Below, in pieces: positions 21,486 through 24,174 of a stretch of DNA of 64,000 nt. The DNA is from Marinicella sp. GTDB taxonomy: Bacteria > Pseudomonadota > Gammaproteobacteria > Xanthomonadales > Marinicellaceae. Numbering within the stretch: position 1 is the first letter of the stretch; each line of letters starts with the position of its first letter. The stretch spans positions 1 to 64,000 of the forward strand of contig JANQRW010000038.1 in NCBI GenBank assembly GCA_028284365.1, given 5' to 3'. Both the position numbers and the translations under genes were made by a program. The notes under the pieces are model-generated. The model saw only the letters and a list, made by a program, of their open reading frames with translations. It had not been told where the DNA came from and did no database searches.

Positions 21486-21983
21486 TCACTCAATCTCACA
21501 GTTACTGATCAATTTATTTAAAGTAGCTGATAGTTGTGATAACTGTTCTGCTGAAATGCCATCAAGCGCAATTGTACGGTTTTGATTTCTTATTTTTTTA
21601 AGCTTAAATAGAATTTGTTTGGCTTTGTTGGTCAACTTCAGTGAATACTTCCTCCTGTCTTTATTATTTATCTCCCTTTTTAGATAGCCATTCTTTTTCA
21701 ACAGTTCAATAATACGTGTGACTGACGCTTTGTCTTTGAAAACCAAGGCTGCTATCTGACTTTGACTCAATTCGGGGTATTGCTCAACAAAATGCAATAT
21801 CAGCGCCTGGTCAACTGTGATATCTCCCACCTTTTGATCAAACTGATCCTGGGCATATCTTTTGTACTGTTTAATCGCTTTTTCAATGGTATAGAAGATC
21901 GTTTTATCAGGTGTTAACTCATCAAGCTTATTCATCCAGTTTTGGTCTTCCAAACCCTCATTTGAGTCTTTATTATTTTTCAT
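21486..21983 (-). CDS. MarR-family transcriptional regulator
   Basis: 165 residues with the MarR plan: an N-terminal dimer helix, then 'LSQSQIAALVFKDKASVTRI' (winged helix, about residues 74-93), 'LLKKNGYLKREINNKDRRKY' with the DxR wing, and C-terminal dimer helices. MarR proteins bind palindromes as dimers and are usually released by a small ligand. Its start overlaps the end of the serine-hydrolase gene by 11 bp, so the two share one transcript and the regulator likely controls the pair through the palindrome at 23479-23514. Confidence 0.9.
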   Translation of the reverse strand: MKNNKDSNEGLEDQNWMNKLDELTPDKTIFYTIEKAIKQYKRYAQDQFDQKVGDITVDQALILHFVEQYPELSQSQIAALVFKDKASVTRIIELLKKNGYLKREINNKDRRKYSLKLTNKAKQILFKLKKIRNQNRTIALDGISAEQLSQLSATLNKLISNCEIE

Positions 21984-23442
21984 CAGTTATGACTTTTATG
22001 CGCTTCAATTTTTCGATGAGTATCTCATCATTCGGATACAGTTTTAAGCTTTTTTCATAACTCTTTACTGCCTCATGGTTTTTGCCCAATTTATGAAAAA
22101 CATCCCCCATTGCTGCATGAATTGTTTCATCATCAGGATTTATCTGAACAGTCATCCGCAGGATTTCAAGTGCTTGGTTATACTCCTCCCGTTTTCGGTA
22201 TTGATCACTTTCATGAAGCATGTAACGAATTGAGACTTTATTCTCAGCGATTTCCAACTGTTTCCTGGCCGCTTTTAGGCCTTTGTTTTTAAATGCAGTT
22301 AACACCTTTTGAGTATTAAAAAACCTATCGGTATGCGCTGTCTTTCCACCAATCTCACGACGAATGAATGACCGTACTTCATACCATCCGTCCATTGCTG
22401 ACCTGTTTGAAAGAACAACAGCAACATACCCAGACTGCCTGAATATATCCATATTAGCCGCAACTCCATGAGCCCCTCCACTGTGGCCAAATGAAGTTTC
22501 TTTCTGCGCTTTATATAAACTGAGGCCATAACCATAACCACGCCCGTTATGGTCAATAGTCATTAAATCAAGTATGTCTTTTGAAATGATTTGGTAAGAA
22601 CTTGTTGCCTGAGCAAAAGCCAAAAAATCATGCGCTGTTGAATAGGCACCTCCAGCAGAACTACCAATAGCACCACCTAGATTCGTTTCTACCAATGATC
22701 TATTTATTAATGAATATTCATAGGTTCCTGCCAAACCCTCAACCACTTCATCACTTCGCCAACCCGTGTTTTTCATACCCGCTGGTTTAAAGATTGTTTT
22801 TTCGATGTGATCATAGTAGTTTTCACCAGTTATCTTTTCAATGATTAAGCCAAGCAACAAGTATCCGGAATTACTGTATTGTGAACTCTGGCCTGGAATA
22901 AAATTCAAAGGTTCATATTCAAAAAACTGTAAGAAGTCAGACAGTTTATTGATACTACTTTTGGAGTGATTATCATACTTGGGATTAAAATAATCACTTA
23001 AACCTGATTGATGTGTCAACAATTGATGAATGGTCACTTTGTTTTTAACGATTTCATTTGGGTAGTCGGGTAAAAATTTACCAACAACATCGTCAACCTT
23101 TAGCTGACCAGATTCAACCAGTTGCATGATGGCCACAGCTGTGAACATCTTTGCCATTGATGCAGTCTGAAATTTGGTGCCAATTTTGTTTGGAGTTTTA
23201 TGGGCATAATTTGCATATCCATGCTCATATTCAATAATGACTTGGCCGTTCTTAGCAATCAAAACCACACCGTTGAAATCGCTGTTTTGTTCTAAATATG
23301 CTTGAATATTCGACAGCATAGCTTCATCAGATCTTGATTCGGCTTTATTCATAAAGCCCAAAACAAACAATAAGACCAGTGTGCTCATCCAGCCAGAAAA
23401 ATATGAAAAAATTGAAATTGATTTTGTTGTGTCTGTATTCAT
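21973..23442 (-). CDS. Secreted serine hydrolase (class C beta-lactamase / PBP4-like fold) with C-terminal TPRs
   Basis: 489 residues. An N-terminal hydrophobic segment (about 11-32) acts as signal peptide or anchor. The beta-lactamase-related triad motifs are present: 'TASMAKMFTA' (SxxK), 'YSNSGY' (YxN) and 'FGHSGGAHG' (HxG), with 'LLTHQSGLSDY' between the first two. This makes it an active-site-serine esterase, peptidase or beta-lactam-related enzyme; true beta-lactamase activity cannot be inferred. Residues about 420-480 form two TPR-like repeats ('ALEILRMTVQINPDDETIHA', 'AVKSYEKSLKLYPNDEIL'). It heads a two-gene unit with the MarR regulator. Confidence 0.88.
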   Translation of the reverse strand: MNTDTTKSISIFSYFSGWMSTLVLLFVLGFMNKAESRSDEAMLSNIQAYLEQNSDFNGVVLIAKNGQVIIEYEHGYANYAHKTPNKIGTKFQTASMAKMFTAVAIMQLVESGQLKVDDVVGKFLPDYPNEIVKNKVTIHQLLTHQSGLSDYFNPKYDNHSKSSINKLSDFLQFFEYEPLNFIPGQSSQYSNSGYLLLGLIIEKITGENYYDHIEKTIFKPAGMKNTGWRSDEVVEGLAGTYEYSLINRSLVETNLGGAIGSSAGGAYSTAHDFLAFAQATSSYQIISKDILDLMTIDHNGRGYGYGLSLYKAQKETSFGHSGGAHGVAANMDIFRQSGYVAVVLSNRSAMDGWYEVRSFIRREIGGKTAHTDRFFNTQKVLTAFKNKGLKAARKQLEIAENKVSIRYMLHESDQYRKREEYNQALEILRMTVQINPDDETIHAAMGDVFHKLGKNHEAVKSYEKSLKLYPNDEILIEKLKRIKVITDEK

Positions 23443-23473: not shown

Positions 23474-23514
23474 ATTATATACACATATAGTTGATATATC
23501 AACTATATGTGTAT
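23474..23514 (-). promoter_or_regulatory. Strong sigma-70 promoter overlapped by a perfect 36-bp palindrome (likely MarR operator)
   Basis: Reading leftwards, TTGATA (complement of 23497-23502) and TATAAT (complement of 23474-23479) are exactly 17 bp apart, ending 32 bp before the hydrolase ATG. Bases 23479-23514 form a perfect 36-bp palindrome, arms ATACACATATAGTTGATA and its exact complement, covering the -35 box and the spacer. A dimeric repressor bound here would block polymerase. The MarR gene in the same operon is the obvious candidate. Confidence 0.8.
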
Positions 23515-23655
23515 CAACTTAATTCAAAATAGCATCAAGACATAAACAAAGAGTTTCTAGTCAATGGAGACATCGAACCACAAACAAATGACAGCACCTT
23601 TACTTTTTTGCATTCTTGAATTGTTATATTCATGTTGATAAGAATATAATAAAGT

Positions 23656-24174
23656 ATGAAATTTTTGTTGCTATTAGCTTTGTCGTTCAATTTTCAATTC
23701 GCTGATGCCAATCAATGGGTTAAATTAGGTGAAGCTGAGATCAGCTGGGGCTACAGAACCCCTTATCGCATCAATCTGATGGCCCCCAAGGGCGTGCATG
23801 ACTTGGATGATATTCGAAACGGCATGCAAGTGGTGCAATTTGATATTGAATGGTTGGCTCCGGTCATCGCCAAAGACCAGGTAGAAAAACATTTCAAAGA
23901 ACTGATCGAAGAACAACTGGATGATCCAGAATCAATCAAGTTCAATCAAACCATCATCAATCGTCTAACCAAAAAACTACCCGAAGCGAATCGCTTTGAT
24001 CGCTGGCAATTTACTTTTTCTCCTGATACAGGTACTCAAGTGACTATAGCAGGTGAACAAGTACATACCCTCATTGGTTCAGAAATCAACCGGGCATTAC
24101 ACCATGCCTGGTTATTACGAGATCCTGTAACCACTTCTAAACTATTAACTCGCTTACTCAAACTAGGTAAATAA
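23656..24174 (+). CDS. Chalcone-isomerase-like periplasmic protein
   Basis: 172 residues with a signal peptide (MKFLLLLALSFNFQFADA). The mature sequence follows the chalcone-isomerase-like family found in many proteobacteria: 'LGEAEISWGYRTPYRINLMAP' (in pieces) at the front and 'GEQVHTLIGSEINRALHHAW' with 'PVTTSKLLTRLLKL' at the end. Bacterial members of this type are not known to act on flavonoids; fatty-acid or small-molecule binding is more likely. Its TAA overlaps the ATG of the next gene (TAATG), so it is coupled to the two amidohydrolase-like genes. Confidence 0.7.
   Translation: MKFLLLLALSFNFQFADANQWVKLGEAEISWGYRTPYRINLMAPKGVHDLDDIRNGMQVVQFDIEWLAPVIAKDQVEKHFKELIEEQLDDPESIKFNQTIINRLTKKLPEANRFDRWQFTFSPDTGTQVTIAGEQVHTLIGSEINRALHHAWLLRDPVTTSKLLTRLLKLGK

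Follow-up and report, generated by a model that had tools for sequence, protein, structure and literature searches.

The perfect 36-bp palindrome upstream of a hydrolase–marR operon of Marinicella sp. very probably has at its core the autoregulatory operator of a MarR subfamily whose recognition helix has the form FKDxASxTR. This assignment is drawn from a comparison of sequences across related loci: the 12-bp core TTGATATATCAA recurs before marR genes of this subfamily in many genomes, one half of it forms, in Marinicella sp., the −35 hexamer of a promoter-like site, and in the relatives a further half-site stands at one preferred distance from it. Throughout, the window denotes the whole 64-kb (64,000-nucleotide) stretch of DNA that was analysed.

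The palindrome and the promoter of the operon

The palindrome at 23479–23514 reads ATACACATATAGTTGATATATCAACTATATGTGTAT and consists of two 18-nt arms that are 100% complementary with no spacer between them, as exact as an earlier note on this DNA had claimed; the interval given there, 23474–23514, additionally takes in the −10 hexamer. It is the sole perfect palindrome of at least 18 bp in the window, and in 60 sequences generated from it by a first-order Markov model the longest one measured at most 22 bp (mean, 16.4 bp). The earlier note had named many copies in unrelated places as an argument against its reading, and the regulon search of the 3.11-Mb genome, which returned one site, does not bear this out: the central 16-mer AGTTGATATATCAACT and the 12-mer core each occur once, and three further places match the 16-mer when two mismatches are allowed. 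Beyond the palindrome, its two flanks have CAACTT(A) in common across a 7-base gap, and a shared 7-mer so near the junction has a chance probability of 0.9%. Inverted symmetry beyond 36 bp is not claimed, because 5% of random flank pairs and 10% of shuffles aligned with at least as high a score. The features of the region are as follows.

23479–23514, no strand: perfect 36-bp palindrome, the putative whole symmetric operator (from the sequence and the Markov copies)
23491–23502, no strand: candidate operator core O1, TTGATATATCAA, the central 12 bp of the palindrome (from conservation in related loci)
23497–23502, minus: −35 hexamer TTGATA, one half of O1 (promoter scan)
23474–23479, minus: −10 hexamer TATAAT, 17 bp from the −35 hexamer (promoter scan)
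23503–23514, plus: right arm, CTATATGTGTAT; scores 15.2, with the next 3 bases, on the family profile of promoter-side arms
23479–23490, minus: left arm, an exact inverted copy of the right arm; scores 9.6 with the next 3 bases
23512–23517, plus: second half-site TATCAA, 15 bp from the right half of the core (sequence compared with the family spacing)
23476–23481, minus: mirror of the second half-site, TATATA, matching at 4 of 6 positions and overlapping the −10 box (arm sequence)
21973–23442, minus: hydrolase with a PF00144 domain and C-terminal TPRs, probably exported; first gene of the operon
21486–21983, minus: MarR-family regulator of 165 aa; second gene of the operon

On the minus strand, TTGATA (23502–23497) and TATAAT (23479–23474) are separated by 17 bp and together match 11 of 12 consensus positions, which bears out the placement of the palindrome over the promoter of the hydrolase–marR operon. 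The region has nine promoter-like sites, a total at the level of shuffled sequence (8.2), and this one is the best of them. The gene layout was also as previously described, with the hydrolase gene followed on the same strand by marR, and the two genes overlap by 11 bp. No near-match to the operator 16-mer was found directly before marR; both genes should therefore depend on one promoter, as a negative-feedback switch. A divergent gene at 23656–24174 (plus strand) encodes a chalcone isomerase-like protein (PF16036) and has its own promoter-like site at 23621–23650.

By its domain, the predicted regulator belongs to the MarR family, scoring above the curated cut-offs of PF12802 (45.3 bits; cut-off, 27) and PF01047 (41.3 bits; cut-off, 24.6). 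Its recognition helix, FKDKASVTR, fits the form FKDxASxTR. Identity with BilQ (63 bits; cut-off, 125), SlyA (51.1; 120), HpaR (36.8; 121.2) or FabT (35.7; 200) was rejected, all four scores being below the NCBIfam curated cut-offs for these equivalogs. The hydrolase has 489 residues, scores 193.2 bits against PF00144 and carries TPR repeats. The PF00144 serine hydrolases (S12, or class C beta-lactamase-like) have the motifs SxxK, YxN and HxG, and SMAK, YSN and HSG are present in the translation. A class C beta-lactamase proper was rejected on the NCBIfam model bla_class_C (64.2 bits against a cut-off of 415).

The core site and the MarR subfamily

Related loci were fetched by protein pattern, without selection for the DNA site, and the best 80 of 138 were used; the window MarR alone, as a pattern on genome contigs, found no relative, whereas an alignment of five relatives did. 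Upstream DNA was sufficient at 79 of the 80 loci, being too short at L046. Within the 200 bp before the matched marR region, the best match to TTGATATATCAA had no mismatch at 59 loci, one at 13, two at six and four at one, many of the loci being related to one another. Cumulatively, 72 of the 79 have a match with at most one mismatch and 78 of the 79 with at most two. Shuffled upstream stretches gave means of 0, 0.2, 3.9 and 42.3 loci with zero, one, two and four mismatches, that is, about 0.2 loci with at most one and about 4.1 with at most two. Beyond the upstream stretches of the related loci, the exact 12-mer occurred only twice in 703,344 bases.

A control set comprised 30 MarR genes with sequence, from 67 Pfam-domain matches in 10 genomes; these genomes had been chosen for having one such MarR, and several of the control genes also belong to the set of 80. 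Nine of the 30 helices had the form FKDxASx[TA]R, including that of the window's own gene, where the site precedes the hydrolase. All seven of the other FKDxASxTR genes have the site (six exact, one with one mismatch), and the FKDQASVAR gene lacks it. Among the 21 remaining genes, one had an exact site (helix variant FKDAASVNR), two had a site with two mismatches and 18 had none better than three mismatches. The MarR genes at L137 and L156, which have KDQASVAR in place of KDxASxTR, have no site, a hint that the threonine helps to set the specificity. Residues K83, D84, S87, R90 and R111 (window numbering) are invariant in the 81 rows of the alignment, where helix conservation arises partly by selection, since the patterns used to fetch the 80 loci came from the recognition helix.

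Within the genus, the exact 12-mer stands before marR in each of the three congeners that have a MarR relative and upstream sequence. In two of these, the first half of the core again forms the −35 hexamer (TTGATA-17-TAAAGT or TAAACT), and in the third TATAAT runs into the core. The exact 12-mer is also present in congeners where no MarR relative was found, once in G013 and twice in G014; against this background of about one 12-mer per genome, one additional copy is no proof of a regulon. A gene for a 392-residue, probably secreted protein in a MarR-bearing Marinicella genome is preceded, 15 bp ahead of its ATG, by an exact TTGATATATCAA (L022, 1501–1512; G017:C44:147207), which may be a second target or a chance occurrence.

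A same-strand gene lies within 200 bp of marR at 70 of the 78 loci where the marR ORF was placed. By Pfam, these neighbours include 23 S41 peptidases, 22 PF00144 proteins, six aspartyl proteases and five S9 peptidases, together with single M61, trypsin and other alpha/beta hydrolase genes (18 of the 24 remaining genes were scanned one by one), so that peptidases and hydrolases account for about 59 of the 70 when the families are added with their overlap unchecked. Unrelated genes also occur as neighbours, such as those for a SnoaL-like protein, a PRPP synthase and an ABC transporter. Nine of the PF00144 neighbours align with the window hydrolase over 441–486 columns at 33–38% identity, the TPR end included. 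At the related loci the site stands directly before marR, which is the first gene; this usual, perhaps not defining, arrangement is absent from the window, where the hydrolase comes first and marR second. The nine long alignments indicate that the window holds a recurrent marR–hydrolase pairing with the gene order reversed.

The window thus combines the FKDxASxTR helix with the core, a palindromic site by sequence, in the promoter of the regulator's own operon. The claim that the palindrome is a MarR operator on its own operon's promoter is strongly supported by footprinting across the relatives and by the match to marR–hydrolase pairs elsewhere. A different regulator, such as a metal-dependent repressor of the DtxR/TroR type to which the nearby marR is incidental, could in principle use the same site. 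The 12-mer is indeed contained in the synthetic operator oligonucleotides of TroR of Treponema denticola, and the TroR operator likewise lies near a sigma70-like promoter, as described in PMC2628430. However, TroR is a member of the DtxR family, unrelated to MarR and acting on other genes, the 12-mer accompanies, in many genomes, MarR genes that share a single recognition-helix type, and no DtxR-like gene was noted among the scanned or read ORFs of at least 60 aa between 20000 and 29000. We therefore regard this alternative as very improbable, and the 12-mer shared by the TroR operator and the MarR core as an apparent coincidence of sites.

As in MarR autoregulatory operators, a winged-helix regulator is encoded in the operon that it would control and the palindromic site lies within the promoter. 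The window departs from MarR operators in general, reviewed as 16–20 bp long and often palindromic (PMC6018408, PMC5487221), in its 36 bp of perfect symmetry, in having the regulator as second gene and in the further conserved half-site 15 bp away. Among NCBIfam models the window MarR matches BilQ best, at 63 bits far below the cut-off of 125, and it is likewise far below the FabT cut-off of 200. The FabT box, too, has TTGAT and ATCAA-like halves. The neighbours of the present subfamily are peptidases and hydrolases, in contrast to the fatty-acid and bilirubin genes of FabT and BilQ. No paper on this subfamily was found in open-licence full texts, and a MarR subfamily with the operator TTGATATATCAA is apparently undescribed.

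The half-site at 15 bp and the doubled arms

At the 64 exact sites of the related loci, a second TATCAA occurs exactly 15 bp past the core's own, in full at 28 sites and with at least five of six bases at 40, and this half-site is found at hardly any other downstream distance. Upstream, a spacing of 9 gave near-matches at 10 of the 64 sites, none of them exact; spacings of 30–32 gave a few matches, some of them due to five loci with full cores in tandem. In these five (L043, L054, L055, L065 and L084), two complete cores stand 30 or 31 bp apart before marR, and all precede PF00144 hydrolase genes that align with the window hydrolase through the TPR end. At one Marinicella locus, the far side of the core carries a near-complete second site at a distance of 15 bp. 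The corresponding plus-strand sequence of the window is TTGATATATCAACTATATGTGTATCAACTT, comprising the core, the arm and an exact half-site. The half-site (23512–23517) lies partly outside the palindrome and upstream of the operon's −35 hexamer; it is thus upstream of the promoter, whereas in most relatives it is downstream of the core. The bases between the core and the half-site often form TATATTTG, and TAnnTTTG is found there at 23 of the 64 sites. TAnnTTTG corresponds to the −7 motif described for Bacteroidetes in PMC7366714.

On the family profile, promoter-side arms of the relatives have a median score of 12.2, and none of their 64 upstream arms reaches the 9.6 of the window's left arm (best, 7.9). 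Both window arms thus score as promoter-side arms, so that the long palindrome consists of one core with two promoter-side arms, an arrangement seen in no relative examined. Symmetry of at least 20 bp is present at 12 of the 64 sites, compared with 6.5 by flank shuffling, and extends to as much as 32 bp in a Mucilaginibacter locus.

Two further readings of the palindrome were weighed against these data. In the first, the core alone matters to the MarR operator, and the arms and half-site arise by chance and as side effects of an A+T-rich promoter. When the left and right flanks of the 64 related sites were shuffled, palindromes of at least 36 bp arose in 18% of 5000 draws, which is frequent because many flanks share one consensus; exactness alone consequently proves no function. 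The arms of the relatives also overlap Bacteroidota-type promoter boxes. Set against this are the occurrence of the half-site at essentially one spacing, the promoter-side scores of both window arms, of which even the lower exceeds every upstream arm in the relatives, and the excess of symmetry at position 7 (36 of 64 sites, against 22 expected under independence). On balance, an operator reduced to its core seems unlikely, while deserving more weight than the other alternatives. The second reading, a DNA or RNA hairpin (a cruciform or terminator) in place of a protein site, is the least credible of those considered. A single strand of the palindrome folds as DNA at −17.1 kcal/mol (z = −7.6), but any perfect palindrome would fold likewise; this one is A+T-rich and lies upstream of the predicted transcription start, and no terminator-like site was found at it. 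What the relatives conserve, moreover, is the 12-bp core and the phase of the half-site: many arms are not self-complementary, and at 28 of the 64 sites the symmetry stops at 12 bp.

For the MarR operator with its half-site, the comparison also modifies the suggestion, made in the earlier note, that the palindrome holds two overlapping MarR dimers. Only one full site, the 12-bp core, is contained in the palindrome, whose length comes from the symmetric arms; the part that survives is the second dimer, now suggested by the half-site 15 bp away that is conserved in the relatives and lies partly outside the palindrome. It is plausible, from this phasing, that two adjacent MarR dimers occupy the core and the half-site. 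QacR-type pairs, in which two dimers bind overlapping DNA sites (PMC6018408), offer a precedent for what had been proposed for the palindrome, although QacR belongs to the TetR family and its likeness to the window operator is one of working only.

A model for the switch and its origin

Taken as a whole, we consider it highly likely that the palindrome is the operator of the operon's own MarR repressor, which would bind at the core and switch the hydrolase and marR. A MarR dimer on TTGATATATCAA (23491–23502) would cover the −35 hexamer together with six spacer bases and so block RNA polymerase. A ligand, perhaps one that the exported hydrolase consumes or produces, would bind MarR and release it, allowing the hydrolase and the regulator to be made. 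The second dimer would probably sit on the half-site at 23512–23517, 15 bp away. The 36-bp symmetry reflects the presence here, on both sides of the core, of an arm that the relatives have on one side.

Relatives of the window MarR at E 1e-12 were found in five of 151 genomes, its own included, and at E 1e-22 in its own genome only, among 369 genomes of the class. A search of 17 other genomes of the genus (G001–G017) for the hydrolase returned nothing at E 1e-40, and the DNA of the operon matched no plasmid record. The 80 related loci, the best of 138, are labelled as Bacteroidota (73), Pseudomonadota (six) and Balneolota (one). In a tree of 81 proteins and 142 columns, the window MarR pairs with a Psychroserpens protein (support, 99/87) inside a mixed 31-row clade (100/98), and the Marinicella MarR proteins beside S41 peptidases fall within a different supported clade (98/96). 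A separate acquisition of the window MarR from Bacteroidota is the simplest reading of this pattern. More speculatively, and in our estimate improbably, the doubled operator might have arisen from a Bacteroidota module that brought an arm with a Bacteroidota-type promoter box and half-site; this arm would have been copied in inverted orientation around the core, and the copy would have gained a sigma70 −10 box. In this way a foreign operator would have turned into a gammaproteobacterial promoter that still left space for one dimer at the core and a further one on either side.

For the subfamily, which is mostly from Bacteroidota, these results would supply a DNA site recognizable in the sequence alone and tied to a short recognition-helix pattern. 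The core site would predict which MarR genes are local switches of an adjoining peptidase or hydrolase, and the constant 15-bp phase of the half-site would allow cooperation between two MarR dimers to be tested directly. The window itself would represent a MarR switch that has moved to another phylum, with its promoter rebuilt.
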